From Piscicola geometra (Eukaryota > Annelida > Clitellata > Hirudinida > Piscicolidae): 64,000 nt of DNA. The DNA lies in the NCBI GenBank assembly GCA_943735955.1, contig OX030955.1:13109383-13173382 (forward strand), in the 5' to 3' direction. Positions within the stretch are counted from its first letter, which is position 1, and each line of letters begins with the position of its first letter. The translations under genes and the position numbers were made by a program. The notes under the pieces are model-generated. The model had not been told where the DNA came from and ran no database searches. It saw only the letters and a list, made by a program, of their open reading frames with translations. Of the stretch, positions 1-64,000 are shown piece after piece.

Positions 1-3000
1 CCGACTACTGCATCGACAACAGTGCCGACTACTGCATCAACAAGTGTGTCTAGTGCTGCAACGACAACAGTGCCGATTACTGCATCAACAACTGTGCCGA
101 CTACTGCATCAACAACACTGCCGACTACTGCATCGAAAACAGTGCCGACTACTGCATCGACAACAGTGCCGACAACTGCATCAACAACAGTGCCGACTAC
201 TGCATCGACAAAAGTGCCGACTACTGCATCGACAACAGTGTCAACTACTGCACCGACAACAGTGCTGATTACTGCATTAACAACTGTGCCGACTAGTGCA
301 TCAACAACAGTGCCAACTACTGCATCGACAACAGTGCTGACTATTGCATCAACAACACTGCCGACTACTGCATCAAAAACAGTGCCGACTACTGCATCAA
401 CAACAGTGCCGACAACTGCATCAACAACAGTGCCGACTACTGCATCGACAACAGTGCCAACTACTGCATCGACAACAGTGCTGACTATTGCATCAACAAC
501 AGTGCCGACTACTGCATCGACAACAGTGCCGACAACTGCATCGACAACTGTGCCGACTACTGCATCAACAACAGTGCCGACTACTGCCTCGACAGCAGTA
601 CCGACTACTGCATCGACAACAGTGCCGACTACTGCATCAACAACAGTGCCGACTACTGCATCAACAAGTGTGTCTAGTGCTGCAACGACAACAGTGCCGA
701 CTACTGCCTCAACAACAGTGCCGACTACTGCATCGACAACAGTGCCAACTACTGCATCGACAACAGTGCTGACTATTGCATCAACAAGTGTGTCTACCGC
801 TGCATCGACAACAGTGCCGATTACTGCATCAACAACTGTGCCGACTACTGCATCAACAACAGTGCCAACTACTGCATCGACAACAGTGCTGACTATTGCA
901 TCAACAACACTGCCGACTACTGCATCAAAAACAGTGCCGACTACTGCATCAACAACAGTGCCGACAACTGCATCAACAACAGTGCCGACTACTGCATCGA
1001 CAACAGTGCCGACTACTGCATCGACAACAGTACCGACTACTGCATCGACAACAGTGCCGACTACTGCATCAACAACAGTGCCAACTACTGCATCGACAAC
1101 AGTGCTGACTATTGCATCAACAACAGTGCCGACTACTGCATCGACAACAGTGCCGACAACTGCATCGACAACTGTCCCGACTACTGCATCAACAACAGTG
1201 CCGACTACTGCATCGACAGCAGTACCGACTACTGCATCGACAACAGTGCCGATTACTGCATCAACAACAGTGCCGACTACTGCATCAACAACAGTGCCGA
1301 CTACTGCATCGACAACAGTGCCGACTACTGCATCAACAAGTGTGTCTAGTGCTGCAACGACAACAGTGCCGATTACTGCATCAACAACTGTGCCGACTAC
1401 TGCATCAACAACACTGCCGACTACTGCATCGACAACAGTGCCGACTACTGCATCGACAACAGTACCGACTACTGCATCGACAACAGTGCCGACTACTGCA
1501 TCAACAACAGTGCCAACTACTGCATCGACAACAGTGCTGACTATTGCATCAACAACAGTGCCGACTACTGCATCGACAACAGTGCCGACAACTGCATCGA
1601 CAACTGTGCCGACTACTGCATCAACAACAGTGCCGACTACTGCATCGACAGCAGTACCGACTACTGCATCGACAACAGTGCCGATTACTGCATCAACAAC
1701 AGTGCCGACTACTGCATCAACAACAGTGCCGACTACTGCATCGACAACAGTGCCGACTACTGCATCAACAAGTGTGTCTAGTGCTGCAACGACAACAGTG
1801 CCGATTACTGCATCAACAACTGTGCCGACTACTGCATCAACAACACTGCCGACTACTGCATCGAAAACAGTGCCGACTACTGCATCGACAACAGTGCCGA
1901 CAACTGCATCAACAACAGTGCCGACTACTGCATCGACAAAAGTGCCGACTACTGCATCAAAAACAGTGCCGACTACTGCATCAACAACAGTGCCAACTAC
2001 TGCATCGACAACAGTGCTGACTATTGCATCAACAACAGTGCCGACTACTGCATCGACAACAGTGCCGACAACTGCATCGACAACTGTGCCGACTACTGCA
2101 TCAACAACAGTGCCGACTACTGCATCGACAGCAGTACCGACTACTGCATCGACAACAGTGCCGATTACTGCATCAACAACAGTGCCGACTACTGCATCAA
2201 CAACAGTGCCGACTACTGCATCGACAACAGTGCCGACTACTGCATCAACAAGTGTGTCTAGTGCTGCAACGACAACAGTGCCGATTACTGCATCAACAAC
2301 TGTGCCGACTACTGCATCAACAACACTGCCGACTACTGCATCGAAAACAGTGCCGACTACTGCATCGACAACAGTGCCGACAACTGCATCAACAACAGTG
2401 CCGACTACTGCATCGACAAAAGTGCCGACTACTGCATCGACAACAGTGTCAACAACTGCACCGACAACAGTGCTGATTACTGCATTAACAACTGTGCCGA
2501 CTAGTGCATCAACAACAGTGCCAACTACTGCATCGACAACAGTGCTGACTATTGCATCAACAACACTGCCGACTACTGCATCAAAAACAGTGCCGACTAC
2601 TGCATCAACAACAGTGCCGACAACTGCATCAACAACAGTGCCGACTACTGCATCGACAACAGTGCCGACTACTGCATCGACAACAGTACCGACTACTGCA
2701 TCGACAACAGTGCCGACTACTGCATCAACAACAGTGCCAACTACTGCATCGACAACAGTGCTGACTATTGCATCAACAACAGTGCCGACTACTGCATCGA
2801 CAACAGTGCCGACAACTGCATCGACAACTGTGCCGACTACTGCATCAACAACAGTGCCGACTACTGCATCGACAGCAGTACCAACTACTGCATCGACAAC
2901 AGTGCCGATTACTGCATCAACAACAGTGCCGACTACTGCATTAACAACAGTGCCGACTACTGCATCGACAACAGTGCCGACTACTGCATCAACAAGTGTG

Positions 3001-6000
3001 TCTAGTGCTGCAATGACAACAGTGCCGACTACTGCCTCAACAACAGTGCCGACTATTGCATCGACAACAGTGCCAACTACTGCATCGACAACAGTGCTGA
3101 CTATTGCATCAACAAATGTGTCTACCGCTGCATCGACAACAGTGCCGATTACTGCATCAACAACTGTGCCGACTACTGCATCAACAACACTGCCGACTAC
3201 TGCATCGAAAACAGTGCCGACTACTGCATCGACAACAGTGCCGACAACTGCATCAACAACAGTGCCGACTACTGCATCGACAAAAGTGCCGACTACTGCA
3301 TCGACAACAGTGTCAACTACTGCACCGACAACAGTGCTGATTACTGCATTAACAACTGTGCCGACTAGTGCATCAACAACAGTGCCGACTACTGCATCAA
3401 CAACAGAGCCGACTACTGCATCGACAACAGTGCCGACTACTGCATCAACAACAGTGCCGACTACTGCATTAACAACAGAGCCGACTACCGCATCGACAAC
3501 AGTGCCGACTACTGCATCGACAACAGTGCCGACTACTGCATTAACAACAGAGCCGACTACTGCATCGACAACAGTGCCGACTACTGCATCGACAACAGTG
3601 CCGACTACTGCATCGACAACAGTGCCGACTACTGCATCAACAACAGTGCCGACTACTGCATCGACAACAGTGCCCACTACTGCATCGACAATAGTGCCGA
3701 CTACTGCATCGACAACAGTGCCAACTACTGCATCGACAACAGTGCTGACTATTGCATCAACAACAGTGCCAACTACTGCATCGACAACAGTGCCGACAAC
3801 TGCATCGACAACTGTGCCGACTACTGCATCAACAACAGTGCCGACTACTGCATCGACAACAGTGCCGACTACTGCATCAACAAGTGTGTCTAGTGCTGCA
3901 ACGACAACAGTGCCGATAACTGCCTCAACAACAGTGCCGACTATTGCATCGACAACAGTGCCAACTACTGCATCGACAACAGTGCTGACTATTGCATCAA
4001 CAAGTGTGTCTACCGCTGCATCGACAACAGTGCCGATTACTGCATCAACAACTGTGCCGACTACTGCATCAACAACACTGCCGACTACTGCATCAAAAAC
4101 AGTGCCGACTACTGCATCGACAACAGTGCCGACAACTGCATCAACAACAGTGCCGACTACTGCATCGAAAAAAGTGCCGACTACTGCATCGACAACAGTG
4201 TCAACTACTGCACCGACAACAGTGCTGATTACTGCATTAACAACTGTGCCGACTAGTGCATCAACAACAGTGCCGACTACTGCATCAACAACAGAGCCGA
4301 CTACTGCATCGACAACAGTGCCGACTACTGCATCAACAACAGTGCCGACTACTGCATTAACAACAGAGCCGACTACCGCATCGACAACAGTGCCGACTAC
4401 TGCATCGACAACAGTGCCGACTACTGCATTAACAACAGAGCCGACTACTGCATCGACAACAGTGCCGACTACTGCATCGACAACAGTGCCGACTACTGCA
4501 TCGACAACAGTGCCGACTACTGCATCAACAACAGTGCCGACTACTGCATCGACAACAGTGCCCACTACTGCATCGACAATAGTGCCGACTACTGCATCGA
4601 CAACTGTGCCAACTACTGCATCGACAACAGTGCTGACTATTGCATCAACAACAGTACCAACTACTGCATCGACAACAGTGCCGACAACTGCATCGACAAC
4701 TGTGCCGACTACTGCATCAACAACAGTGCCGACTACTGCATCGACAACAGTGCCGACTACTGCATCAACAAGTGTGTCTAGTGCTGCAACGACAACAGTG
4801 CCGATAACTGCCTCAACAACAGTGCCGACTATTGCATCGACAACAGTGCCAACTACTGCATCGACAACAGTGCTGACTATTGCATCAACAAGTGTGTCTA
4901 CCGCTGCATCGACAACAGTGCCGATTACTGCATCAACAACTGTGCCGACTACTGCATCAACAACACTGCCGACTACTGCATCAAAAACAGTGCCGACTAC
5001 TGCATCGACAACAGTGCCGACAACTGCATCAACAACAGTGCCGACTACTGCATCGAAAAAAGTGCCGACTACTGCATCGACAACAGTGTCAACTACTGCA
5101 CCGACAACAGTGCTGATTACTGCATTAACAACTGTGCCGACTAGTGCATCAACAACAGTGCCGACTACTGCATCAACAACAGAGCCGACTACTGCATCGA
5201 CAACAGTGCCGACTACTGCATCAACAACAGTGCCGACTACTGCATTAACAACAGAGCCGACTACTGCATCGACAACAGTGCCGACTACTGCATCGACAAC
5301 AGTGCTGATTACTGCATTTACAACTGTGCCGACTAGTGCATCAACAACAGTGCTGACTACTGCATCAACAACAGAGCCGACTACTGCATCGACAACAGTG
5401 CCGACTACTGCATCAACAACAGTGCCGACTACTGCATTAACAACAGAGCCGACTACTGCATCGACAACAGAGCCGACTACTGCATCGACAACAGTGCCGA
5501 CTACTGCATCGACAACAGTGCCGACTACTGCATCGACAACAGTGCCGACTACTGCATCAACAACAGTGCCGACTACTGCATCGACAACAGTGCCCACTAC
5601 TGCATCGACAATAGTGCCGACTACTGCATTGACAACAGTGCCAACTACTGCATCGACAACAGTGCTGACTATTGCATCAACAACAGTGCCGACTACTGCA
5701 TCGACAACAGTGCCGACAACTGCATTGATAACTGTGCCGACTACTGCATTAACAACAGAGCCGACTACTGCATCGACAACAGAGCCGACTACTGCATCGA
5801 CAACAGTGCCGACTACTGCATCGACAACAGTGCCGACTACTGCATCTACAACAGTGCCGACTACTGCATCGACAACAGTGCCGACTACTGCATCAACAAT
5901 TGTGTCTAGTGCTGCATCGACAACAGTGCCGACTACTGCATCGACAACAGTGCCGACTACTGCATCAACAACAGTGCCGACTACTGCATCGACAACAGTG

Positions 6001-9000
6001 CCGACTACTGCATCGACAACAGTGCCGACTACTGCATCAACAATTGTGTCTAGTGCTGCATCGACAACAGTGCCGACTACTGCATCGACAACAGTGCCAA
6101 CTACTGCATCGACAACAGTGCTGACTATTGCATCAACAACAGTGCCAACTACTGCATCGACAACAGTGCCGACAACTGCATCGACAACTGTGCCGACTAC
6201 TGCATCAACAACAGTGCCGACTACTGCATCGACAACAGTGCCGACTACTGCATCAACAAGTGTGTCTAGTGCTGCAACGACAACAGTGCCGATAACTGCC
6301 TCAACAACAGTGCCGACTATTGCATCGACAACAGTGCCAACTACTGCATCGACAACAGTGCTGACTATTGCATCAACAAGTGTGTCTACCGCTGCATCGA
6401 CAACAGTGCCGATTACTGCATCAACAACTGTGCCGACTACTGCATCAACAACACTGCCGACTACTGCATCAAAAACAGTGCCGACTACTGCATCGACAAC
6501 AGTGCCGACAACTGCATCAACAACAGTGCCGACTACTGCATCGAAAAAAGTGCCGACTACTGCATCGACAACAGTGTCAACTACTGCACCGACAACAGTG
6601 CTGATTACTGCATTAACAACTGTGCCGACTAGTGCATCAACAACAGTGCCGACTACTGCATCAACAACAGAGCCGACTACTGCATCGACAACAGTGCCGA
6701 CTACTGCATCAACAACAGTGCCGACTACTGCATTAACAACAGAGCCGACTACTGCATCGACAACAGTGCCGACTACTGCATCGACAACAGTGCTGATTAC
6801 TGCATTAACAACTGTGCCGACTAGTGCATCAACAACAGTGCTGACTACTGCATCAACAACAGAGCCGACTACTGCATCGACAACAGTGCCGACTACTGCA
6901 TCAACAACAGTGCCGACTACTGCATTAACAACAGAGCCGACTACTGCATCGACAACAGAGCCGACTACTGCATCGACAACAGTGCCGACTACTGCATCGA
7001 CAACAGTGCCGACTACTGCATCGACAACAGTGCCGACTACTGCATCAACAACAGTGCCGACTACTGCATCGACAACAGTGCCGACAACTGCATTGATAAC
7101 TGTGCCGACTACTGCATTAACAACAGAGCCGACTACTGCATCGACAACAGAGCCGACTACTGCATCGACAACAGTGCCGACTACTGCATCGACAACAGTG
7201 CCGACTACTGCATCTACAACAGTGCCGACTACTGCATCGACAACAGTGCCGACTACTGCATCGACAACAGTGCCGACTACTGCATCAACAATTGTGTCTA
7301 GTGCTGCATCGACAACAGTGCCGACTACTGCATCGACAACAGTGCCGACTACTGCATCAACAACAGTGCCGACTACTGCATCGACAACAGTGCCGACTAC
7401 TGCATCGACAACAGTGCCGACTACTGCATCAACAATTGTGTCTAGTGCTGCATCGACAACAGTGCCGACTACTGCATCGACAACAGTGCCAACTACTGCA
7501 TCGACAACAGTGCTGACTATTGCATCAACAACAGTGCCAACTACTGCATCGACAACAGTGCCGACAACTGCATCGACAACTGTGCCGACTACTGCATCAA
7601 CAACAGTGCCGACTACTGCATCGACAACAGTGCCGACTACTGCATCAACAAGTGTGTCTAGTGCTGCAACGACAACAGTGCCGATAACTGCCTCAACAAC
7701 AGTGCCGACTATTGCATCGACAACAGTGCCAACTACTGCATCGACAACAGTGCTGACTATTGCATCAACAAGTGTGTCTACCGCTGCATCGACAACAGTG
7801 CCGATTACTGCATCAACAACTGTGCCGACTACTGCATCAACAACACTGCCGACTACTGCATCAAAAACAGTGCCGACTACTGCATCAACAACAGTGCCGA
7901 CTACTGCATCGAAAAAAGTGCCGACTACTGCATCGACAACAGTGTCAACTACTGCACCGACAACAGTGCTGATTACTGCATTAACAACTGTGCCGACTAG
8001 TGCATCAACAACAGTGCCGACTACTGCATCAACAACAGAGCCGACTACTGCATCGACAACAGTGCCGACTACTGCATCAACAACAGTGCCGACTACTGCA
8101 TTAACAACAGAGCCGACTACTGCATCGACAACAGTGCCGACTACTGCATCGACAACAGTGCCGACTACTGCATCTACAACAGTGCCGACTACTGCATCGA
8201 CAACAGTGCCGACTACTGCATCGACAACAGTGCCGACTACTGCATCAACAATTGTGTCTAGTGCTGCATCGACAACAGTGCCGACTACTGCATCGACAAC
8301 AGTGCCGACTACTGCATCAACAACAGTGCCGACTACTGCATCGACAACAGTGCCGACTACTGCATCGACAACAGTGCCGACTACTGCATCAACAATTGTG
8401 TCTAGTGCTGCATCGACAACAGTGCCGACTACTGCATCGACAACAGTGCCAACTACTGCATCGACAACAGTGCTGACTATTGCATCAACAACAGTGCCAA
8501 CTACTGCATCGACAACAGTGCCGACAACTGCATCGACAACTGTGCCGACTACTGCATCAACAACAGTGCCGACTACTGCATCGACAACAGTGCCGACTAC
8601 TGCATCAACAAGTGTGTCTAGTGCTGCAACGACAACAGTGCCGATAACTGCCTCAACAACAGTGCCGACTATTGCATCGACAACAGTGCCAACTACTGCA
8701 TCGACAACAGTGCTGACTATTGCATCAACAAGTGTGTCTACCGCTGCATCGACAACAGTGCCGATTACTGCATCAACAACTGTGCCGACTACTGCATCAA
8801 CAACACTGCCGACTACTGCATCAAAAACAGTGCCGACTACTGCATCGACAACAGTGCCGACAACTGCATCAACAACAGTGCCGACTACTGCATCGAAAAA
8901 AGTGCCGACTACTGCATCGACAACAGTGTCAACTACTGCACCGACAACAGTGCTGATTACTGCATTAACAACTGTGCCGACTAGTGCATCAACAACAGTG

Positions 9001-48000: not shown

Positions 48001-51000
48001 CCGACTACTGCATCGACAGCAGTGCTGACTACTGCATCAACTACAGTGCCGACTACTGCATCGACAACAATGATTTATACAGCATCAACAAATGTGTCTA
48101 CCGCTGCATCGACAACAGTGCTGATTACTGCATTAACAATTGTGCCGACTAGTGCATCAACAACAGTGCCGACTACTGCATCAACAACAGAGCCGACTAC
48201 TGCATCGACAACAGTGTCGACTACTGCATCAACAACAGTGCCGACTACTGCATCAACAACAGAGCCGACTACTGCATCGACAACAGTGCCGACTACTGCA
48301 TCGACAACAGTGCCGACTACTGCATCGACAACAGTGCCGACTACTGCATCAACAACAGTGCCGACTACTGCATCGACAACAGTGCCGACTACTGCATCGA
48401 CAACAGTGCCGACTACTGCATCAACAATTGTGTCTAGTGCTGCATCGACAACAGTGCCGACTACTGCCTCAACAACAGTGCCGACTACTGCATCGACAAC
48501 AGTGCCGACTACTGCATCGACAACAGTGCCGATTACTGCATCAACAACTGTGCCGACTACTGCATCGACAGCAGTGCCGACTACTGCATCGACAACAGTG
48601 CCGACTACTGCATCGACAACAGTGCTGACTATTGCATCAACAACAGTGCCGACTACTGCATCGACAACAGTGCCGACAACTGCATCGACAACTGTGCCGA
48701 CTACTGCATCGACAACAGTACCGACTACTGCATCGACAACAGTGCCGACTACTGCATCGACAACAGTGCCGATTACTGCATCAACAACTGTGCCGACTAC
48801 TGCATTAACAACACTGCTGACTACTGCATCAACAACAGTGTCGACTACTGCATCGACAACAGTGCCGACAACTGCATCACCAACAGTGCCGACTACTGCA
48901 TCGACAACAGTGTCAACTACTGCAACGACAACAGTGCTGACTATTGCAACAGAATCAACAAGTGTGCCAACTGCTGTATCGACAACAGTGCCGACTACTG
49001 TATCAATGATGACAACAGAATCAACAAGTGTGCCAACTGCTGTATCGACAACAGTGCCGACTACTGTATTAATGATGACAACAGAATCAACAAGTGTGCC
49101 AACTGCTGTGTCGACAACAGTGCCGACTACTGTATTAATGATGACAACAGAATCAACAAGTGTGCCAACTGCTGTTTCGACAACAGTGCCGACTACTGTA
49201 TCAATGATGACAACAGAATCAACAAGTGTGCCAACAACTGTATCGACAACAGTGCCGACTACTCTATCAATGATGAAAACAGAATCAACAAGTGTGCCAA
49301 CTGCTGTATCGACAACAGTGCCGACTACTGTATCAATGATGACAACAGAATCAACAAGTGTGCCAACTGCTGTATCGACAACAGTGCCGACTACTGTATC
49401 AATGATGACAACAGAATCAACAAGTGTGCCAACTGCTGTATCGACAACAGCGCCAACTACTGTATCAATGATGACAACAGAATCAACAAGTGTGCCAACT
49501 GCTGTATCGACAACAGTGCCGACTACTGTATCAATGATGACAACAGAATCAACAAGTGTGCCAACTGCTGGATCGACAACAGTGCCGACTACTGTATCAA
49601 TGATGACAACAGAATCAACAAGTGTGCCAACTGCTGTATCGACAACAGTGCCGACTACTGTATCAATGATGACAACAGAATCAACAAGTGTGCCAACTGC
49701 TGTATCGACAACAGTGCCGACTACTGTATTAATGATGACAACAGAATCAACAAGTGTGCCAACTGCTGTTTCGACAACAGTGCCGACTACTGTATCAATG
49801 ATGACAACAGAATCAACAAGTGTGCCAACAACTGTATCGACAACAGTGCCGACTACTGTATCAATGATGAAAACAGAATCAACAAGTGAGCCAACTACTG
49901 TATCGACAACAGTGCCGACTACTGTATCAATGATGACAACAGAATCAACAAGTGTGCCAACAACTGTATCGACAACAGTGCCGACTACTGTATCAATGAT
50001 GAAAACAAAATCAACAAGTGTGCCAACTGCTGTATCGACAACAGTGCCGACTACTGTATCAATGATGACAACAGAATCAACAAGTGTGCCAACAACTGTA
50101 TCGACAACAGTGCCGACTACTGTATCAATGATGACAACAGAATCAACAAGTGTGCCAACTGCTGTATCGACAACAGTGCCGACTACTGTATCAATGATGA
50201 CAACAAAATCAACAAGTGTAACAACTGCTGTATCGACAACAGTACCGACTACTGTATCAATGATGACAACAGAATCAACAAGTGTGCCAACTGCTGTATC
50301 GACAACAGTGCCGACTACAGTATTAATGATGACAACAGAATCAACAAGTGTGCCAACTGCTGTATCGACAACAGTGCCGACTACTGTATCAATGATGACA
50401 ACAGAATCAACAAGTGTGCCAACTGCTGTATCGACAACAGTGCCGACTACTGTATCAATGATGACAACAGAATCAACAAGTGTGCCAACTGCTGTATCGA
50501 CAACAGTGCCGACTACTGTATTAATGATGACAACAGAATCAACAAGTGTGCCAACTGCTGTATCGACAACAGTGCCGACTACTGTATCAATGATGACAAC
50601 AGAATCAACAAGTGTGCAAACAACTGTATCGACAACAGTGCCGACTACTGTATCAATGATGAAAACAGAATCAACAAGTGAGCCAACTACTGTATCGACA
50701 ACAGTGCCGACTACTGTATCAATGATGACAACAGAATCAACAAGTGTGCCAACTGCTGTATCGACAACAGTGCCGACTACAGTATTAATGATGACAACAG
50801 AATCAACAAGTGTGCCAACTGCTGTATCGACAACAGTGCCGACTACTGTATCAATGATGACAACAGAATCAACAAGTGTGCCAACTGCTGTATCGACAAC
50901 AGTGCCGACTACTGTATCAATGATGACAACAGAATCAACAAGTGTGCCAACTGCTGTATCGACAACAGTGCCGACTACTGTATTAATGATGACAACAGAA

Positions 51001-54000
51001 TCAACAAGTGTGCAAACAACTGTATCGACAACAGTGCCGACTACTGTATCAATGATGAAAACAGAATCAACAAGTGAGCCAACTACTGTATCGACAACAG
51101 TGCCGACTACTGTATCAATGATGACAACAGAATCAACAAGTGTGCCAACTGCTGTATCGACAACAGTGCCGACTACTGTATCAATGATGACAACAGAATC
51201 AACAAGTGTGCCAACTGCTGTATCGACAACAGTGCCGACTACAGTATCAATGATGACAACAGAATCAACAAGTGTGCCAACTGCTGTGTCGACAACAGTG
51301 CCGACTACTGTATCAATGATGACAACAGAATCAACAAGTGTGCCAACTGCTGTATCGACAACAGTGCCGACTACTGTATCAATGATGACAACAGAATCAA
51401 CAAGTGTGCCAACAACTGTATCGACAACAGTGCCGACTACTCTATCAATGATGAAAACAGAATCAACAAGTGTGCCAACTGCTGTATCGACAACAGTGCC
51501 GACTACTGTATCAATGATGACAACAGAATCAACAAGTGTCCCAACTGCTGTATCGACAACAGTGCCGACTACTGTATCAATGATGACAACAGAATCAACA
51601 AGTGTGCCAACTGCTGTATCGACAACAGCGCCGACTACTGTATCAATGATGACAACAGAATCAACAAGTGTGCCAACTGCTGTATCGACAACAGTGCCGA
51701 CTACTGTATCAATGATGACAACAGAATCAACAAGTGTGCCAACTGCTGGATCGACAACAGTGCCGACTACTGTATCAATGATGACAACAGAATCAACAAG
51801 TGTGCCAACTGCTGTATCGACAACAGTGCCGACTACTGTATCAATGATGACAACAGAATCAACAAGTGTGCCAACTGCTGTATCGACAACAGTGCCGACT
51901 ACTGTATCAATGATGACAACAGAATCAACAAGTGTGCCAACTGCTGTATCGACAACAGTGCCGACTACTGTATTAATGATGACAACAGAATCAACAAGTG
52001 TGCCAACTGCTGATTCGACAACAGTGCCGACTACTGTATCAATGATGACAACAGAATCAACAAGTGTGCCAACAACTGTATCGACAACAGTGCCGACTAC
52101 TGTATCAATGATGAAAACAGAATCAACAAGTGAGCCAACTACTGTATCGACAACAGTGCCGACTACTGTATCAATGATGACAACAGAATCAACAAGTGTG
52201 CCAACAACTGTATCGACAACAGTGCCGACTACTGTATCAATGATGAAAACAAAATCAACAAGTGTGCCAACTGCTGTATCGACAACAGTGCCGACTACTG
52301 TATCAATGATGACAACAGAATCAACAAGTGTGCCAACAACTGTATCGACAACAGTGCCGACTACTGTATCAATGATGACAACAGAATCAACAAGTGTGCC
52401 AACTGCTGTATCGACAACAGTGCCGACTACTGTATCAATGATGACAACAAAATCAACAAGTGTAACAACTGCTGTATCGACAACAGTACCGACTACTGTA
52501 TCAATGATGACAACAGAATCAACAAGTGTGCCAACTGCTGTATCGACAACAGTGCCGACTACAGTATTAATGATGACAACAGAATCAACAAGTGTGCCAA
52601 CTGCTGTATCGACAACAGTGCCGACTACTGTATCAATGATGACAACAGAATCAACAAGTGTGCCAACTGCTGTATCGACAACAGTGCCGACTACTGTATC
52701 AATGATGACAACAGAATCAACAAGTGTGCCAACTGCTGTATCGACAACAGTGCCGACTACTGTATTAATGATGACAACAGAATCAACAAGTGTGCCAACT
52801 GCTGTATCGACAACAGTGCCGACTACTGTATCAATGATGACAACAGAATCAACAAGTGTGCAAACAACTGTATCGACAACAGTGCCGACTACTGTATCAA
52901 TGATGAAAACAGAATCAACAAGTGAGCCAACTACTGTATCGACAACAGTGCCGACTACTGTATCAATGATGACAACAGAATCAACAAGTGTGCCAACTGC
53001 TGTATCGACAACAGTGCCGACTACAGTATTAATGATGACAACAGAATCAACAAGTGTGCCAACTGCTGTATCGACAACAGTGCCGACTACTGTATCAATG
53101 ATGACAACAGAATCAACAAGTGTGCCAACTGCTGTATCGACAACAGTGCCGACTACTGTATCAATGATGACAACAGAATCAACAAGTGTGCCAACTGCTG
53201 TATCGACAACAGTGCCGACTACTGTATTAATGATGACAACAGAATCAACAAGTGTGCCAACTGCTGTATCGACAACAGTGCCGACTACTGTATCAATGAT
53301 GACAACAGAATCAACAAGTGTGCCAACAACTGTATCGACAACAGTGCCGACTACTGTATCAATGATGAAAACAGAATCAACAAGTGAACCAACTACTGTA
53401 TCGACAACAGTGCCGACTACTGTATCAATGATGACAACAGAATCAACAAGTGTGCAAACAACTGTATCGACAACAGTGCCGACTACTGTATCAATGATGA
53501 AAACAGAATCAACAAGTGAGCCAACTACTGTATCGACAACAGTGCCGACTACTGTATCAATGATGACAACAGAATCAACAAGTGTGCCAACTGCTGTATC
53601 GACAACAGTGCCGACTACAGTATTAATGATGACAACAGAATCAACAAGTGTGCCAACTGCTGTATCGACAACAGTGCCGACTACTGTATCAATGATGACA
53701 ACAGAATCAACAAGTGTGCCAACTGCTGTATCGACAACAGTGCCGACTACTGTATCAATGATGACAACAGAATCAACAAGTGTGCCAACTGCTGTATCGA
53801 CAACAGTGCCGACTACTGTATTAATGATGACAACAGAATCAACAAGTGTGCCAACTGCTGTATCGACAACAGTGCCGACTACTGTATCAATGATGACAAC
53901 AGAATCAACAAGTGTGCCAACAACTGTATCGACAACAGTGCCGACTACTGTATCAATGATGAAAACAGAATCAACAAGTGAACCAACTACTGTATCGACA

Positions 54001-57000
54001 ACAGTGCCGACTACTGTATCAATGATGACAACAGAATCAACAAGTGTGCCAACAACTGTATCGACAACAGTGCCGACTACTGTATCAATAATGAAAAAAA
54101 AATCAACAAGTGTGCCAACTGCTGTATCGACAACAGTGCCGACTACTGTATCAATGATGACAACAGAATCAACAAGTGTGCCAACAACTGTATCGACAAC
54201 AGTACCGACTACTGTATCAATGATGACAACAGAATCAACAAGTGTGCCAACTGCTGTATCGACAACAGTGCCGACTACAGTATCAATGATGACAACAGAA
54301 TCAACAAGTGTGCCAACTGCTGTATCGACAACAGTGCCAACTACTGTATCAATGATGACAACAGAATCAACAAGTGTGCCATCTGCTGTATCGACAACAG
54401 CGCCGACTACTGTATCAATGATGACAACAGAATCAACAAGTGTGCCAACTGCTGTATCGACAACAGTGCCGACTACTGTATCAATGATGACAACAGAATC
54501 CACAAGTGTGCCAACTGCTGTATCGACAACAGTGCCGACTACTGTATCAATGATGACAACAGAATCAACAAGTGTGCCAACTGCTGTATCGACAACAGTG
54601 CCGACTACTGTATCAATGATGACAACAGAATCCACAAGTGTGCCAACTGCTGTATCGACAACAGTGCCGACTACTGTATCAATGATGACAACAGAATCAA
54701 CAAGTGTGCCAACTGCTGTATCGACAACAGTGCCGACTACTGTATCAATGATGACAACAGAATCAACAAGTGTGCCAACTGCTGTATCGACAACAGTGCC
54801 GACTACTGTATTAATGATGACAACAGAATCAACAAGTGTGCCAACTGCTGTGTCGACAACAGTGCCGACTACTGTATCAATGATGACAACTGAATCAACA
54901 AGTGTGCCAACTGCTGTATCGACAACAGTGCCGACTACTGTATCAATGATGACAACAGAATCAACAAGTGTGCCAACAACTGTATCGACAACAGTGCCGA
55001 CTACTGTATCAATGATGAAAACAGAATCAACAAGTGTGCCAACTGCTGTATCGACAACAGCGCCGACTACTGTATCAATGATGACAACAGAATCAACAAG
55101 TGTGCCAACTGCTGGTTCGACAACAGTGCCGACTACTGTATCAATGATGACAACAGAATCAACAAGTGTGCCAACTGCTGTATCGACAACAGTGCCGACT
55201 ACTGTATCAATGATGACAACAGAATCAACAAGTGTGCCAACTGCTGTATCGACAACAGTGCCGACTACTGTATCAATGATGACAACAGAATCAACAAGTG
55301 TGCCAACTGCTGTATCGACAACAGTGCCGACTACTGTATCAATGATGACAACAGAATCAACAAGTGTGCCAACTGCTGTATCGACAACAGTGCCGACTAC
55401 TGTATTAATGATGACAACAGAATCAACAAGTGTGCCAACTGCTGTATCGACAACAGTGCCGACTACTGTATCAATGATGACAACAGAATCAACAAGTGTG
55501 CCAACAACTGTATCGACAACAGTGCCGACTACTGTATCAATGATGAAAACAGAATCAACAAGTGAGCCAACTGCTGTATCGACAACAGTGCCGACTACTG
55601 TATCAATGATGACAACAGAATCAACAAGTGTGCCAACTGCTGTATCGACAACAGTGCCGACGATTGTATCAATGATGACAACAGAATCAACAAGTGTGCC
55701 AACAGCTGTATCGACAGCAGTGCCGACTACTGTATCAATGATGACAACAGAATCAACAAGTGTGCCAACTGCTGTATCGACAACAGTGCCGACTACTGTA
55801 TCAATGATGACAACAGAATCAACAAGTGTGCGAACTGCTGTATCGACAACAGCGCCGACTACTGTATCAATGATGACAACAGAATCAACAAGTGTGCCAA
55901 CTGCTGTATCGACAACAGTGCCGACTACTGTATTAATGATGACAACAGAATCAACAAGTGTGCCAACTGCTGTATCGACAACAGTGCCGACTATTGTATC
56001 AATGATGACAACAGAATCAACAAGTGTGCCAACAACTGTATCGACAACAGTGCCGACTACTGTATCAATGATGAAAACAGAATCAACAAGTGTGCCAACA
56101 ACTGTATCGACAACAGTGCCGACTACTGTATCAATGATGAAAACAGAATCAACAAGTGTGCCAACTGCTGTATCGACAACAGTGCCGACTACTGTATCAA
56201 TGATGACAACAGAATCAACAAGTGTGTCAACAACTGTATCGACAACAAGGCCGACTACTGTATCAATGATGACAACAGAATCAACAAGTGTGCCAACTGC
56301 TGTATCGACAACAGTGCCGACTACTGTATCAATGATGACAACAGAATCAACAAGTGTGCCAACTGCTGAATCGACAACAGTGCCGACTATTGTTTCAAGG
56401 ATGACAACAGAATCAACAAGTGTGCCAACAGCTGTATCGACAGCAGTGCCGACTACTGTATCAATGATGACAACAGAATCAACAAGTGTGCCAACTGCTG
56501 TATCGACAACAGTGCCGACTACTGTATCAATGATGACAACAGAATCAACAAGTGTGCCAACTGCTGTATCGACAACAGTGCTGACTACTGTATCAATGAT
56601 GACAACAGAATCAACAAGTGTGCCAACTGCTGTATCGACAACAGTGCCGACTACTGTATCAATGATGACAACAGAATCAACAAGTGTGCCAACTGCTGTA
56701 TCGACAACAGTGCCGACTACTGTATCAATGATGACAACAGAATCAACAAGTGTGCCAACTGCTGTATCGACAACAGTGCCGACTACTGTATCAATGATGA
56801 CAACAGAATCAACAAGTGTACCAACTGCTGTATCGACAACAGTACCGACTACTGTATCAATGATGACAACAAAATCAACAAGTGTGCCAACTGCTGTATC
56901 GACAACAGTGCCGACTACTGTATCAATGATGACAACAGAATCAACAAGTGTGCCAACTGCTGTATCGACAACAGCGCCGACTACTGTATCAATGATGACA

Positions 57001-60000
57001 ACAGAATCAACAAGTGTGCCAACTGCTGTATCGACAACAGTGCCGACTACTGTATTAATGATGACAACAGAATCAACAAGTGTGCCAACTGCTGTATCGA
57101 CAACAGTGCCGACTACTGTATCAATGATGACAACAGAATCAACAAGTGTGCCAACAACTGTATCGACAACAGTGCCGACTACTGTATCAATGATGAAAAC
57201 AGAATCAACAAGTGTGCCAACAACTGTATCGACAACAGTGCCGACTACTGTATCAATGATGAAAACAGAATCAACAAGTGTGCCAACTGCTGTATCGACA
57301 ACAGTGCCGACTACTGTATCAATGATGACAACAGAATCAACAAGTGTGTCAACAACTGTATCGACAACAAGGCCGACTACTGTATCAATGATGACAACAG
57401 AATCAACAAGTGTGCCAACTGCTGTATCGACAACAGTGCCGACTACTGTATCAATGATGACAACAGAATCAACAAGTGTGCCAACTGCTGAATCGACAAC
57501 AGTGCCGACTATTGTATCAATGATGACAACAGAATCAACAAGTGTGCCAACTGCTGTATCGACAGCAGTGCCGACTACTGTATCAATGATGACAACAGAA
57601 TCAACAAGTGTGCCAACTGCTGTATCGACAACAGTGCCGACTACTGTATCAATGATGACAACAGAATCAACAAGTGTGCGAACTGCTGTATCGACAACAG
57701 CGCCGACTACTGTATCAATGATGACAACAGAATCAACAAGTGTGCCAACTGCTGTATCGACAACAGTGCCGACTACTGTATCAATGATGACAACAGAATC
57801 AACAAGTGTGCCAACTGCTGTATCGACAACAGTGCCGACTACTGTATCAATGATGACAACAGAATCAACAAGTGTGCCAACTGCTGTATCGACAACAGTG
57901 CCGACTACTGTATCAATGATGAAAACAGAATCAACAAGTGTGCCAACTGCTGTATCGACAACAGTGCCGACTACTGTATCAATGATGACAACAGAATCAA
58001 CAAGTGTACCAACTGCTGTATCGACAACAGTGCCGACTACTGTATCAATGATGACAACAGAATCAACAAGTGTGCCAACTGCTGTATCGACAACAGCGCC
58101 GACTACTGTATCAATGATGACAACAGAATCAACAAGTGTGCCAACTGCTGTATCGACAACAGTGCCGACTACTGTATTAATGATGACAACAGAATCAACA
58201 AGTGTGCCAACTGCTGTATCGACAACAGTGCCGACTACTGTATCAATGATGACAACAGAATCAACAAGTGTGCCAACAACTGTATCGACAACAGTGCCGA
58301 CTACTGTATCAATGATGAAAACAGAATCAACAAGTGTGCCAACAACTGTATCGACAACAGTGCCGACTACTGTATCAATGATGAAAACAGAATCAACAAG
58401 TGTGCCAACTGCTGTATCGACAACAGTGCCGACTACTGTATCAATGATGACAACAGAATCAACAAGTGTGTCAACAACTGTATCGACAACAAGGCCGACT
58501 ACTGTATCAATGATGACAACAGAATCAACAAGTGTGCCAACTGCTGTATCGACAACAGTGCCGACTACTGTATCAATGATGACAACAGAATCAACAAGTG
58601 TGCCAACTGCTGAATCGACAACAGTGCCGACTACTGTATCAATGATGAAAACAGAATCAACAAGTGTGCCAACAGCTGTATCGACAGCAGTGCCGACTAC
58701 TGTATCAATGATGACAACAGAATCAACAAGTGTGCCAACTGCTGTATCGACAACAGTGCCGACTACTGTATCAATGATGACAACAGAATCAACAAGTGTG
58801 CGAACTGATGTATCGACAACAGCGCCGACTACTGTATCAATGATGACAACAGAATCAACAAGTGTGCCAACTGCTGTATCGACAACAGTGCCGACTACTG
58901 TATCAATGATGACAACAGAATCAACAAGTGGGCCAACTGCTGTATCGACAACAGTGCCGACTACTGTATCAATGATGACAACAGAATCAACAAGTGTGCC
59001 AACTGCTGTATCGACAACAGTGCCGACTACTGTATCAATGATGACAACAGAATCAACAAGTGTGCCAACTGCTGTATCGACAACAGTGCCGACTACTGTA
59101 TCAATGATGACAACAGAATCAACAAGTGTACCAACTGCTGTATCGACAACAGTACCGACTACTGTATCAATGATGACAACAAAATCAACAAGTGTGCCAA
59201 CTGCTGTATCGACAACAGTGCCGACTACTGTATCAATGATGACAACAGAATCAACAAGTGTGCCAACTGCTGTATCGACAACAGTGCCGACTACTGTATC
59301 AATGATGACAACAAAATCAACAAGTGTGCCAACTGCTGTATCGACAACAGCGCCGACTACTGTATCAATGATGACAACAGAATCAACAAGTGTGCCAACT
59401 GCTGTATCGAAAACAGTGCCGACTACTGTATCAATGATGACAACAGAATCAACAAGTGTGCCAACTGCTGTATCGACAACAGTGCCGACTACTGTATCAA
59501 TGATGACAACAGAATCAACAAGTGTGCCAACTGCTGTATCGACAACAGTGCCGACTACTGTATCAATGATGACAACAGAATCAACAAGTGTGCCAACTGC
59601 TGTATCGACGACAGTGCCGACTACTGTATTAATGATGACAACAGAATCAACAAGTGTGCCAACTGCTGTATCGACAACAGTGCCGACTACTGTATCAATG
59701 ATAACAACAGAATCAACAAGTGTGCCAACAACTGTATCGACAACAGTGCCGACTACTGTATCAATGATGACAACAGAATCAACAAGTGTGCCAACTGCTG
59801 TATCGACAACAGTGCCGACTACTGTATCAATGATGACAACAGAATCAACAAGTGTGCCAACAACTGTATCGACAACAGTGCCGACTACTGTATCAGTGAT
59901 GAAAACAGAATCAACAAGTGTGCCAACTGCTGTATCGACAACAGTGCCGACTACTGTATCAATGATGACAACAGAATCAACAAGTGTGTCAACAACTGTA

Positions 60001-63000
60001 TCGACAACAGTGCCGACTACTGTATCAATGATGACAACAGAATCAACAAGTGTGCCAACTGCTGAATCGACAACAGTGCCGACTATTGTATCAATGATGA
60101 CAACAGAATCAACAAGTGTGCCAACAGCTGTATCGACAGCAGTGCCGACTACTGTATCAATGATGACAACAGAATCAACAAGTGTGCCAACTGCTGTATC
60201 GACAACAGTGCCGACTACTGTATCAATGATGACAACAGAATCAACAAGTGTGCGAACTGCTGTATCGACAACAGTGCCGACTACTGTATCAATGATGACA
60301 ACAGAATCAACAAGTGTGCCAACTGCTGTATCGACAACAGTGCCGACTACTGTATCAATGATGACAACAGAATCAACAAGTGTGCCAACTGCTGTATCGA
60401 CAACAGTGCCGACTACTGTATCAATGATGACAACAGAATCAACAAGTGTGCCAACTGCTGTATCGACAACAGTGCCGACTATTGTATCAATGATGACAAC
60501 AGAATCAACAAGTGTGCCAACTGCTGTATCGACAACAGTGCCGACTACTGTATCATTGATGACAACAGAATCAACAAGTGTGCCAACTGCTGTATCGACA
60601 ACAGTGCCGACTACTGTACCAATGATGACAACAGAATCAACAAGTGTGCCAACTGCTGTATCGACAACAGTGCCGACTACTGTATCAATGATGACAACAG
60701 AATCAACAAGTGTGCCAACTGCTGTATCGACAACAGCGCCGACTACTGTATCAATGATGACAACAGAATCAACAAGTGTGCCAACTGCTGTATCGACAAC
60801 AGTGCCGACTACTGTATCAATGATGACAACAGAATCAACAAGTGTGCCAACTGCTGTATCGACAACAGTGCCGACTACTGTATCAATGATGACAACAGAA
60901 TCAACAAGTGTGCCAACTGCTGTATCGACAACAGTGCCGACTACTGTATCAATGATGACAACAGAATCAACAAGTGTGCCAACTGCTGTATCGACAACAG
61001 CGCCGACTACTGTATCAATGATGACAACAGAATCAACAAGTGTGCCAACTGCTGTATCGACAACAGTGCCGACTATTGTATCAATGATGACAACAGAATC
61101 AACAAGTGTGCCAACTGCTGTATCGACAACAGTGCCGACTACTGTATCATTGATGACAACAGAATCAACAAGTGTGCCAACTGCTGTATCGACAACAGTG
61201 CCGACTACTGTACCAATGATGACAACAGAATCAACAAGTGTGCCAACTGCTGTATCGACAACAGTGCCGACTACTGTATCAATGATGACAACAGAATCAA
61301 CAAGTGTGCCAACTGCTGTATCGACAACAGCGCCGACTACTGTATCAATGATGACAACAGAATCAACAAGTGTGCCAACTGCTGTATCGACAACAGTGCC
61401 GACTACTGTATCAATGATGACAACAGAATCAACAAGTGTGCCAACTGCTGTATCGACAACAGTGCCAACTACTGTATCAATGATGACAACAGAATCAACA
61501 AGTGTGCCAACTGCTGTATCGACAACAGTGCCGACTACTGTATCAATGATGACAACAGAATCAACAAGTGTGCCAACTGCTGTATCGACAACAGTGCCGA
61601 CTACTGTATCAATGATGACAACAGAATCAACAAGTGTGCCAACTGCTGTATCGACAACAGCGCCGACTACTGTATCAATGATGACAACAGAATCAACAAA
61701 TGTGCCAACTGCTGTATCGACAACAGTGCCGACTACTGTATCAATGATGACAACAGAATCAACAAGTGTGCCAACTGCTGTATCGACAACAGTGCCGACT
61801 ACTGTATCAATGATGACAACAGAATCCACAAGTGTGCCAACTGCTGTATCGACAACAGTGCCGACTACTGTATCAATGATGACAACAGAATCAACAAGTG
61901 TGCCAACTGCTGTATCGACAACAGTGCCGACTACTGTATCAATGATGACAACAGAATCAACAAGTGTGCCAACTGCTGTATCGACAACAGTGCCGACTAC
62001 TGTATTAATGATTACAACAGAATCAACAAGTGTGCCAACTGCTGTATCGACAACAGTGCCGACTACTGTATCAATGATGACAACAGAATCAACAAGTGTG
62101 CCAACTGCTGTATCGACAACAGTGCCGACTATTGTATCAATGATGACAACAGAATCAACAAGTGTGCCAACAACTGTATCGACAACAGTGCCGACTACTG
62201 TATCAATGATGAAAACAGAATCAACAAGTGTGCCAACTGCTGTATCGACAACAGTGCCGACTACTGTATCAATGATGACAACAGAATCCACAAGTGTGCC
62301 AACTGCTGTATCGACAACAGTGCCGACTACTGTATCAATGATGACAACAGAATCAACAAGTGTGCCAACTGCTGTATCGACAACAGGGCCGACTACTGTA
62401 TCAATGATGACAACAGAATCAACAAGTGTGCCAACTGCTGTATCGACAACAGTGCCGACTACTGTATTAATGATTACAACAGAATCAACAAGTGTGCCAA
62501 CTGCTGTATCGACAACAGTGCCGACTACTGTATCAATGATGACAACAGAATCAACAAGTGTGCCAACTGCTGTATCGACAACAGTGCCGACTATTGTATC
62601 AATGATGACAACAGAATCAACAAGTGTGCCAACAACTGTATCGACAACAGTGCCGACTACTGTATCAATGATGAAAACAGAATCAACAAGTGTGCCAACT
62701 GCTGTATCGACAACAGTGCCGACTACTGTATCAATGATGACAACAGAATCAACAAGTGTGCCAACTGCTGTATCGACAACAGCGCCGACTACTGTATCAA
62801 TGATGACAACAGAATCAACAAGTGTGCCAACTGCTGTATCGACAACAGTGCCGACTACTGTATCAATGATGACAACAGAATCAACAAGTGTGCCAACTGC
62901 TGTATCGACAACAGTGCCGAATACTGTATCAATGATGACAACAGAATCAACAAGTGTGCCAACTGCTGTATCGACAACAGTGCCGACTACTGTATTAATG

Positions 63001-64000
63001 ATGACAACAGAATCAACAAGTGTGCCAACTGCTGTATCGACAACAGTGCCGACTACTGTATCAATGATGACAACAGAATCAACAAGTGTGCCAACTGCTG
63101 TATCGACAGCAGTGCCGACTACTGTATCAATGATGACAACAGAATCAACAAGTGTGCCAACAACTGTATCGACAACAGTGTCGACTATTGTATCAATGAT
63201 GACAACAGAATCAACAAGTGTGCCAACTGCTGTATCGACAACAGTGCCGACTACTGTATCAATGATGACAACAGAATCAACAAGTGTGCCAACTGCTGTA
63301 TCGACAACAGTGCCGACTACTGTATCAATGATGATAACAGAATCAACAAGTGTGCCAACTGCTGTATCGACAACAGTGCCGACTACTGTATCAATGATGA
63401 CAACAGAATCAACAAGTGTGCCAACAACTGTATCGACAACAGTGCCGACTACTGTATCAATGATGAAAACAGAATCAACAAGTGTGCCAACTGCTGTATC
63501 GACAACAGTGCCGACTACTGTATCAATGATGACAACAGAATCAACAAGTGTGCCAACTGCTGTATCGACAACAGCGCCGACTACTGTATCAATGATGACA
63601 ACAGAATCAACAAGTGTGCCAACTGCTGTATCGACAACAGTGCCGACTACTGTATCAATGATGACAACAGAATCAACAAGTGTGCCAACTGCTGTATCGA
63701 CAACAGTGCCGAATACTGTATCAATGATGACAACAGAATCAACAAGTGTGCCAACTGCTGTATCGACAACAGTGCCGACTACTGTATTAATGATGACAAC
63801 AGAATCAACAAGTGTGCCAACTGCTGTATCGACAACAGTGCCGACTACTGTATCAATGATGACAACAGAATCAACAAGTGTGCCAACTGCTGTATCGACA
63901 GCAGTGCCGACTACTGTATCAATGATGACAACAGAATCAACAAGTGTGCCAACAACTGTATCGACAACAGTGTCGACTATTGTATCAATGATGACAACAG
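1..64000 (+). CDS. Giant mucin-like Thr/Ser/Pro-rich repeat protein, internal fragment (partial at both ends)
   Basis: Frame 1 is open for all 21,333 codons; I found no stop and no frameshift. The product is about 16,316 residues of an octapeptide repeat (PTTASTTV) followed by about 5,017 residues of a 22-residue repeat. From the consensus, Ser+Thr is about 62% in the first array and 55% in the second, roughly 2 MDa of polypeptide in all. I saw no Cys, Trp or His codon, only four Tyr, one Gln, a few Phe, Asp, Gly and Arg, and scattered Lys and Glu. No signal peptide, membrane segment or folded domain is visible. Such composition is typical of mucin PTS tracts, which carry dense O-glycans and act as extended extracellular gels, coats or stalks; that role is inference from composition. 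Synonymous third-position changes (TCA/TCG, ACA/ACT, CCG/CCA, GTG/GTA, GCA/GCC/GCT) are frequent, which supports this strand and frame. No intron is needed. A cell-wall or adhesin stalk is the main alternative. Start and stop lie outside the window. Confidence 0.88.
481..2770 (+). repeat. Higher-order repeat of 432-480 bp within the octads
   Basis: A block that begins LTIA-STTV-PTTA-STTV, then uses ACA-ACT (PTTA) and TCG-ACA-ACT-GTG, starts at 481, 1,105, 1,537, 2,017 and 2,761. The spacings are 624, 432, 480 and 744 bp, all multiples of 24. Each block includes the unusual GCA-GTA-CCG octad (TCG-ACA-GCA-GTA) and ends near the STSV-SSAA marker. Differences between blocks are single substitutions or whole-octad gains and losses. 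Confidence 0.75.
2209..5650 (+). repeat. About 3.4-kb block also present 11,472 bp downstream (13,681-17,120)
   Basis: The order of variant octads in 2,209-5,650 matches 13,681-17,120 at a fixed offset of 11,472 bp (478 octads). It includes the rare AAT marker (3,115 and 14,587), CAA-TGA-CAA (A-M-T-T, 3,013 and 14,485) and ATT-TAC-AAC-TGT (T in place of A, 5,315 and 16,787). Only scattered substitutions separate the two: 2,941 TTA against TCA, and 5,449 ACT against ACA. This is a segmental duplication inside the coding array. The offset copy also carries its own 888-bp repeats. Confidence 0.8.
2990..5290 (+). repeat. 888-bp higher-order tandem repeat, about 2.6 copies
   Basis: Copies start near 2,990, 3,878 and 4,766; the STSV/STNV-STAA marker recurs at 3,109, 3,997 and 4,885. 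Copies 2 and 3 differ from copy 1 by a few substitutions, several silent: near 4,614 ACA became ACT, and near 4,659 GTG became GTA. Similarity of the third copy stops near 5,290. One unit equals 37 octads. Boundaries are good to about one octad. Confidence 0.8.
8357..10140 (+). repeat. About 1.8-kb block also present 3,792 bp downstream (12,149-13,932)
   Basis: The sequence from near 8,357 to 10,140 matches 12,149-13,932 at a constant offset of 158 octads. Both contain the STIV-SSAA and STSV-STAA markers, SKKV, two STTE blocks and the CCC-ACA (PTTA) variant. The second copy ends inside the region shared with 2,209-5,650. Bases 12,149-17,120 are therefore a mosaic of two older blocks. Confidence 0.75.
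16054..21810 (+). repeat. 2,520-bp higher-order tandem duplication, about 2.3 copies
   Basis: Copy 1 (16,054-18,573) and copy 2 (18,574-21,093) looked identical in every line I compared. A partial third copy runs to about 21,810, where TTT and TTA differ. Rare shared variants include CTG-ACT-ACT after an STTE block (16,969 and 19,489), TTT-ACA (16,789 and 19,309) and CCG-ACA-ACT (16,921 and 19,441). One unit is 105 octads. Such identity means a very recent duplication or gene conversion, or an assembly duplication. Confidence 0.8.
21769..24985 (+). repeat. 1,584-bp higher-order tandem duplication, two copies
   Basis: Copy 1 (21,769-23,352) and copy 2 (23,353-24,936) share variant order, including the rare GCT-TCG-ACA-ACT (GCT at 22,594 and 24,178). 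Similarity continues to about 24,985. The unit is 66 octads. A shorter 960-bp spacing of the STSV-STAA marker follows (24,373 to 25,333). Confidence 0.75.
27016..30264 (+). repeat. 1,608-bp higher-order tandem duplication, first site
   Basis: Copies at 27,016-28,623 and 28,624-30,264 share the ISTASTNV markers (27,454 with 29,062 and 27,982 with 29,590), the GAA-GTG variant (STEV) near 27,115 and 28,723, and GCT-TCG octads. One unit is 67 octads. Both contain smaller internal duplications 528 bp long. Confidence 0.75.
34633..37840 (+). repeat. 1,608-bp higher-order tandem duplication, second site
   Basis: Copies at 34,633-36,240 and 36,241-37,840 match in variant order; markers at 35,038 and 36,646 are 1,608 bp apart. 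The block starting at 35,550 recurs at 37,158. The next marker, at 38,542, is 1,896 bp on, so 12 octads were added there. The only Gln codon seen (CAG at 37,921) lies just beyond. Confidence 0.7.
43513..45520 (+). repeat. 1,008-bp higher-order tandem duplication
   Basis: Copy 1 (about 43,513-44,513) and copy 2 (about 44,521-45,520) share two ISTASTNV markers (43,558 with 44,566 and 43,846 with 44,854), the N-A-S variant (43,783 with 44,791) and CCG-CAA-CAA derived GCC-GCA octads. In the first of these markers ACA has become ACT before the Asn. One unit is 42 octads. Confidence 0.75.
44665..48624 (+). repeat. Overlapping 2,280-bp and 3,144-bp offset duplications
   Basis: Bases 44,665-46,344 match 46,945-48,624 at an offset of 2,280 bp. 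Bases 42,440-43,765 match 45,584-46,909 at an offset of 3,144 bp. Both sets include the Tyr-bearing marker (42,646, 45,790, 48,070). Differences are single bases, such as 45,301-45,318 against 47,581-47,598 (two changes) and ATT against ACT at 46,081 and 48,361. The last 6 kb of the octad array is thus a patchwork of copies of itself. Confidence 0.75.
48937..48960 (+). other. In-frame junction between the 24-bp and 66-bp arrays
   Basis: The last octad starts CTG-ACT-ATT-GCA (LTIA) at 48,937. Where Ser-Thr-Thr would normally follow, the sequence continues ACA-GAA-TCA-ACA-AGT-GTG (TESTSV), the first 22-residue unit. The switch needs no spacer and keeps the reading frame. I saw no hybrid or graded units on either side. 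It reads as the fusion point of two separately amplified modules. Confidence 0.9.
49108..52450 (+). repeat. 2,178-bp higher-order repeat in the 66-bp array
   Basis: Rare variants recur 2,178 bp (33 units) apart: GTG for GTA at 49,108 and 51,286, CTA for GTA after ACT (49,264 and 51,442), and GGA for GTA (49,570 and 51,748). Further on the offset is 2,244 bp (50,221 and 52,465, ACA for CCA), so one unit was added between. Exact outer limits were not fixed. Confidence 0.75.
55980..59200 (+). repeat. 1,122-bp higher-order repeat in the 66-bp array, three copies
   Basis: Two rare replacements mark each copy: AGG for GTG (V to R) at 56,248, 57,370 and 58,492, and GAA for GTA (V to E) at 56,368, 57,490 and 58,612. 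The spacing is 17 units. CGA for CCA (P to R) is at 57,679 and 58,801 at the same spacing. A further GAA occurs at 60,064, 22 units later. Confidence 0.8.
60540..61680 (+). repeat. 594-bp higher-order repeat in the 66-bp array
   Basis: TTG for ATG (60,556 and 61,150) and CCA for TCA before the Met pair (60,619 and 61,213) recur 594 bp apart, nine units. GCG for GTG variants near them follow the same spacing. Confidence 0.7.
62480..64000 (+). repeat. 792-bp higher-order repeat in the 66-bp array
   Basis: AAT for ACT (62,920 and 63,712), GCA for ACA (63,109 and 63,901) and TCG for CCG (63,181 and 63,973) each recur exactly 792 bp apart, 12 units. The second copy runs into the window end. Confidence 0.8.

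Follow-up and report, generated by a model that had tools for sequence, protein, structure and literature searches.

A 64,000-bp stretch of the genome of the leech Piscicola geometra (hereafter the window) probably lies within the repeat exon of a single gene, which encodes a membrane-tethered protein of the mucin type. On the best reading of the sequence, this exon has grown to 1.18 Mb, and its predicted product is a membrane-anchored mucin of ∼392,000 amino acids. The frame that is open in the window spans positions 12,513,253 to 13,689,438 of OX030955.1 in the parent assembly, its sole interruption being one 200-N scaffold gap. Between the candidate acceptor and donor sites lie ∼391,994 sequenced codons (∼1,176 kb), of which the window represents 5.4%, or about one twentieth (Table 1). 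Gene-like ends lie in frame on both sides of the array, and stops and frameshifts are depleted between them, as read from the sequence.

Table 1. Features of the predicted gene, the window and the repeat array. Coordinates refer to OX030955.1 unless given as window positions.
Feature	Coordinates	Strand	Description
Candidate signal-peptide exon	12512291-12512348	+	Encodes MTLTRGILLLAGLLSLLSA, followed by donor GTATGT in phase 1; predicted
Lys/Glu-rich segment	12513253-12514608	+	In frame with the array
Array, left part	12514609-13184382	+	
Window, interior of the giant coding exon	13109383-13173382 (window 1-64000)	+	Frame 1, 0 stops
24-bp repeat family	window 1-48946	+	Consensus peptide PTTASTTV; Tandem Repeats Finder, unit alignment
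66-bp repeat family	window 48947-64000	+	Consensus peptide MMTTESTSVPTAVSTTVPTTVS; Tandem Repeats Finder, unit alignment
200-N gap	13184383-13184582 (window coordinates 75,001-75,200, outside the window)		Scaffold gap
Array, right part	13184583-13689173	+	
Ser/Thr stalk and transmembrane helix	13689174-13689438	+	Unique sequence, in frame with the array
Terminal exon	from 13689566	+	ARETLEAEE-stop; predicted splice
AATAAA	13689703	+	Downstream of the tail stop

Repeat families and composition

An earlier note, made from the window alone, had described two repeat families, and both were recovered, one 24-bp-based and the other of 66 bp. A stretch of 24 bases inside the 66-bp unit is identical to the 24-bp unit at 21 of 24 positions, and because of this match one family was plausibly derived from the other. 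The change between them is abrupt: between window positions 48,900 and 49,000, a diverged 24-bp family (GC ∼0.50) gives way to a homogeneous 66-bp family (GC ∼0.43). Bases one unit apart are alike in ∼86% of cases in the 24-bp stretch and in ∼97% in the 66-bp stretch.

The encoded repeats are dominated by Thr, Ser and Pro. Thr and Ser together make up 59% of the fetched array before the gap (mostly the 24-bp family) and 53% after it (the 66-bp family), and with Pro added these three residues account for 69% and 62% of the fetched sequence, respectively. Cysteine does not occur among the 117,932 codons of the fetched array, a composition shared with mucin repeat domains. Cornifin/SPRR repeats are Pro/Gln/Cys-rich, cross-linking sequences; the corresponding Pfam family (PF02389) scored above cut-off in two of three window pieces and was ruled out as a match of composition only, because the 91,666 codons counted include just 8 for Gln and none for Cys. 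A Pfam match to a phage trimerisation domain was likewise dismissed as an artefact of composition, and Rfam returned no match at its gathering score.

Exact internal duplications are also present. The longest one found measures 4,352 bp and lies in the right flank, outside the window, at window coordinates 135,425 and 140,507 (an offset of 5,082 bp); further copies extend over 3,258 bp (16,053 and 18,573) and 2,630 bp (67,264 and 70,696). Such exact block copies suggest recent block duplication.

Extent of the exon in the assembly

Translation of the forward strand in frame 1 gave 0 stops over the 21,333 codons of the window, which bears out the claim of the earlier note that this frame is open throughout, with 851, 180, 2192, 1323 and 4 stops in the five remaining frames. 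The frame with just 4 stops is antisense frame 3, which holds a run of 13,328 codons as a by-product of the repeat unit. The note had further proposed an exon of over 64 kb without an intron, and a protein of more than 21,000 residues that may approach titin. The single open frame stands and a giant predicted protein is supported, whereas both sizes fell short: the exon measures ∼1,176 kb, and the estimate for the protein was about 10 times too low.

Flanks of 200 kb on the left and 90 kb on the right were added to the window, and genome-wide searches covered 171,024,195 bp in 66 sequences. Direct reading of every base covered about 360 kb of the exon (1,176 kb), and the remaining ∼816 kb was covered through the open-frame length given by the genome search. 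The frame is open from the left edge of the fetched sequence to the gap, and from the gap to the right edge. Around the protein-search matches, the open frame measured from stop to stop reaches 223,780 aa before the gap and 173,346 aa after it, lengths that read through Ns and of which the second begins in another frame upstream of the gap. With the Ns and the neighboring frame counted, both are equal, to the codon, to the lengths expected if no stop occurs from position 12,513,253 to the gap and from the gap to 13,689,486. In addition, all 17 of the 180-bp probes placed in the unfetched array proved to be in-frame repeats with no stop. We infer from this continuity of the frame that the array contains no introns.

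Genome-wide matching places the repeats in the same interval and on one strand. A 24-mer of the 24-bp unit has 6,553 matches in the genome (2,821 of them inside the fetched sequence) and a 29-mer of the 66-bp unit has 5,692 (1,210 inside), all of them forward; reverse copies of either unit number zero genome-wide. The leftmost exact 24-bp unit lies at 12,514,684, and the rightmost rare variant of the 66-bp unit, among the matches listed, lies at 13,686,369. Two rarer variants, for which the listing is complete, fall on OX030955.1 within the array in 9 of 9 and 45 of 45 cases, and these copies share a single codon phase before the gap and a single phase after it. One codon phase is likewise shared by 19 units sampled from the 100 leftmost listed. 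At its first base, OX030955.1 starts with a TTAGGG array, a pattern with 8,543 forward and 21,104 reverse matches genome-wide. The COX1 gene of the assembly can be translated under genetic code 5 and resembles that of leeches.

The flanks of the gap meet at an identical point of the 66-bp unit, so that a true gap of zero, or of a whole number of units, would leave the frame intact; the two contigs may be adjacent or trimmed there. This abutment, the presence of a scaffold gap and the ∼97% likeness of the 66-bp units are what could be expected if the mucin gene were real and its length inflated or deflated by assembly, an explanation that we consider quite unlikely. PMC11134150 describes a P. 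geometra assembly, taken here to be the source of this sequence, built from 12-20 kb HiFi fragments at 76-fold coverage (QV 51.3). The longest exact repeat found in the fetched 354 kb, at 4,352 bp, is shorter than such fragments and should be spanned by them, which argues against gross inflation in that sequence, and the 24-bp units, only ∼86% alike, provide many markers.

Constraint on the reading frame

An open frame alone is weak evidence of coding, because both units are multiples of three in length and any frame that is open in the consensus stays open. Since openness in this sense costs nothing, the frames were compared within the same DNA, with chance openness from unit length taken as the null. 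In the 24-bp stretch (248,898 bases), the coding frame contains 0 stops, whereas the stops in the remaining two sense frames open in the consensus number 1,831 and 587. The 66-bp stretches on the two sides of the gap likewise have no stop in the coding frame, and the one further sense frame open in the consensus has 16 on the left and 66 on the right. The consensus-open antisense frame has 12 stops in the 24-bp stretch and, like the coding frame, 0 and 0 in the 66-bp stretches, where it does not discriminate; it is a poor control because none of the possible single changes to the consensus (144 and 198 types) yields a stop in it. These internal controls reject the null.

The phase of the units is equally uniform. 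Alignment placed 9,998 units in the 24-bp stretch and 393 and 1,193 in the left and right 66-bp stretches, covering 96.4%, 99.6% and 99.9% of these stretches. Every one of these 11,584 units is in one codon phase within its own segment, with no spacing among aligned units that is not a multiple of 3. The odd spacings that do occur are in frame: 51 (11 times), 45 (once) and 90 (once).

Which changes are missing can be seen at TCR codons, where a C>A change at the second base always creates a stop. At the other NCN codons, 101 clustered C>A events at this base were counted versus 146 C>T. Given the 39 C>T events found at TCR codons, ∼27 C>A events would be expected there, and 0 were observed. 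The stop test rests on C>A, a change that at TCR codons has no sense outcome for comparison. No formal P value is attached to this deficit, given that a 3-kb rule defined the clusters, that related copies are only partly independent of each other and that the sequence context of C>A is unmatched. One C>G event at a TCR codon counts as a stop type when compared with its nearest consensus and is not an actual stop, the in-frame count being 0. The lack of TGA in the 24-bp units says little, because the sense change TCG>TGG does not occur in their alignment either.

Two patterns were also searched genome-wide, both of which detect stops in an unaltered context only. CTGYAT(RR)ACAACAG has 8 matches in the array, all within the 66-bp part and all reading TGG, with no TAA, TAG or TGA among them, and 5 others on other contigs; the 8 TGG sites probably represent few events. 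The second stop pattern, CTGTATRRATGATGAC (TCA before ATG-ATG), has no match in the genome.

Non-coding satellite DNA, open by chance because its units are multiples of three, is a very improbable account of these data. The unit lengths of 24 and 66, the megabase size of the array and an antisense frame that is almost open in the window and free of stops in the 66-bp stretches are all satellite-like. However, such DNA should lack constraint on any frame, and the array instead combines 0 stops and 0 phase breaks with the 1,831 and 587 (24-bp) and 16 and 66 (66-bp) stops of its other sense frames. Together with the Lys/Glu-rich and transmembrane segments that flank it in frame, and the finding that neither unit has a reverse copy genome-wide, this largely refutes the satellite explanation.

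At the level of amino acids, by comparison, the sequence points to little constraint. Of the variant types possible in the 24-bp family, 46 of 47 replacement and 23 of 24 silent ones are present, at 131 and 128 copies per type, respectively, with one TCG/TCA polymorphism excluded. The 66-bp family contains 2.4 replacement versus 1.8 silent variants per possible type before the gap and 6.1 versus 3.5 after it, where 830 replacement copies are spread over 136 possible types and 198 silent copies over 56. This similarity of replacement and silent variation suggests that composition and frame are kept, and the sequence itself is not.

Ends of the gene

Extension into the flanks located candidates for the start, the signal peptide, the C-terminal transmembrane helix and the stop, with predicted splicing. 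Upstream, the signal-peptide-like exon lies ∼0.9 kb before the Lys/Glu-rich segment. A candidate acceptor, an AG of matching phase and without a pyrimidine tract, would start the long exon at 12,513,257; because this tract is missing from the acceptor of intron 1, the signal-peptide exon is only weakly tied to the gene. The putative first intron contains, by eye, a G-rich degenerate repeat resembling GGTGGTTGATTG. The head of the long exon is rich in Lys, Glu and Asn (90 Lys and 63 Glu among 430 residues), and in the end region viewed (12,512,201-12,514,900) the first repeat-like unit begins at 12,514,609.

Downstream, ten 100-bp probes placed beyond 13,688,000 comprised one in the array, eight that are non-array by eye and one that reads N. 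The C-terminal hydrophobic helix is 19 residues long, with a mean hydropathy of 2.93, and its assignment is by hydropathy only. A GTGAGT donor directly follows position 13,689,438, and a predicted 127-base intron of matching phase ends in CTAG; given this intron, the helix would be followed by a short tail, ITRQYARETLEAEE-stop. Among the 150 scored of 4,025 candidate matches in the genome, a single one spans the C-terminal module in full, the other listed matches being those of the repeat part of the query to the array. Just downstream of the gene, a short motif with GGCCCACC was seen by eye, with a similar motif ∼2 kb further on; it is possibly a dispersed repeat.

Pfam gave no family at E≤1 for the 449-aa head or the 112-aa C-terminal piece. 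In a protein collection that may hold no leech proteins, there were no relatives of the head (E≤0.01) or, at E≤1e-10, of 500 aa taken from the 66-bp array, a negative that carries little weight.

The nature of these ends bears on what kind of protein is encoded. Leeches make cocoons and sucker secretions, and a Lys/Glu-rich head could serve cross-linking, as it might if the product were secreted and had a structural or adhesive role (cocoon, sucker glue or silk-like) instead of forming a mucin coat. We regard this as unlikely, since the C-terminal transmembrane helix and the Thr/Ser/Pro-rich, Cys-free repeats fit tethered mucins better. A tethered mucin is also the simplest reading of Thr/Ser-rich, Cys-free repeats that follow a putative signal peptide and a charged head and precede a helix near the C terminus. 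The Thr/Ser/Pro-rich tandem repeats occupy one large exon, as in such mucins; a single transmembrane helix near the C terminus is predicted from hydropathy, with a short cytoplasmic tail that depends on the predicted intron; and the signal-like exon has a donor of matching phase and a weak acceptor. SEA, EGF or NIDO/AMOP/VWD modules occur in many, not all, vertebrate tethered mucins, and none was found by Pfam at either end (E≤1). As these modules are not universal, their absence weakens kinship with the vertebrate families and not the mucin-like reading. The view of the earlier note, that the window belongs to one exon for a giant mucin-like protein, is supported.

Predicted product and its synthesis

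The tethered mucin would be made with a signal peptide and enter the secretory pathway. Dense O-glycosylation would then turn it into a stiff bottle-brush ∼0.1 mm long (an estimated contour length of 98-141 micrometres). Mucus-forming cells or cells of the integument would carry it anchored in their surface or shed it from there, and it may form a hydrated coat with a protective or slippery function. The array presumably expands as in-frame blocks are exchanged or duplicated, with an amino-acid sequence that would drift almost freely while frame-breaking changes are removed.

A stronger claim is that one mRNA carrying the ∼1.18-Mb exon is translated end to end, giving a membrane-anchored polypeptide of ∼392,000 residues, ∼38 MDa before sugars and ∼0.1 mm in length, which would be the largest protein and the longest coding exon known. 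We hold this tentatively, doubting it slightly more than we believe it. Rough arithmetic gives 5-13 h for the transcription of a 1.18-Mb mRNA and 18-22 h for its translation. Such times speak for an alternative in which the gene and its frame are real and the full-length polypeptide is rarely or never made, owing to internal splicing, early polyadenylation or failed elongation; the array would then be a runaway coding minisatellite, with selection acting only against frame breaks. The similar replacement and silent variation per type, with little beyond the frame protected, fits this alternative as well. It nevertheless appears somewhat unlikely, as the frame is open across the whole array and not just near the 5′ end. 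Stop-type changes are missing in both families, whereas the 3′ part should decay if the 5′ part alone were translated, and any internal splicing must respect the frame.

If the mucin is made at full length, the largest sizes known for an exon, an mRNA and a polypeptide would rise ∼10-fold, and transcription, export, translation, glycosylation and secretion would become testable on a molecule several cells long. Even if only parts are made, a frame open over 1.18 Mb would represent selection on the frame at an unexpected scale. More broadly, long-read assemblies can turn ‘satellite’ into coding sequence, and the surface coat of this fish-parasitic leech now has a candidate gene.

Comparison with known systems

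Among the matches listed in the literature search, no title or start of an abstract reported this gene or a protein of this size. The closest likeness is to the human tethered mucins MUC12, MUC4 and MUC16, which have Thr/Ser-rich repeats and a C-terminal transmembrane segment and, like the leech gene, carry the repeat domain in one large VNTR exon. A 2026 preprint (PMC13345508) gives 23,080 aa for the longest predicted MUC12 protein and reports the largest exon of the human genome. The leech protein would be ∼17 times longer than this MUC12 and differs from it in having a Lys/Glu-rich head and no Pfam SEA or EGF module at its ends; no relative was found in the single protein collection searched.

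Titin resembles the predicted leech protein as a single polypeptide of record size, but it is an intracellular protein, encoded by many exons and consisting mostly of folded domains. For C. elegans titin, the predicted size was raised to 26,136 aa after long reads resolved tandem repeats (PMC6210790). In contrast to that prediction, the leech protein would come from one exon of low-complexity repeats and be ∼15 times longer. The largest known protein is, to our knowledge, PKZILLA-1, with ∼45,000 aa. This polyketide synthase of Prymnesium parvum, named in PMC12300183, is likewise giant and the product of a single gene. PKZILLA-1 is an enzyme with many catalytic modules, whereas the leech protein would be a repeat polymer ∼9 times longer.

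Finally, the leech array shares with satellite DNA a megabase-scale tandem organization of short units, and departs from it in its preserved frame, its restriction to a single strand and the coding ends at its flanks. The leech gene is therefore of a known kind by its anatomy and far outside the known range by its size.
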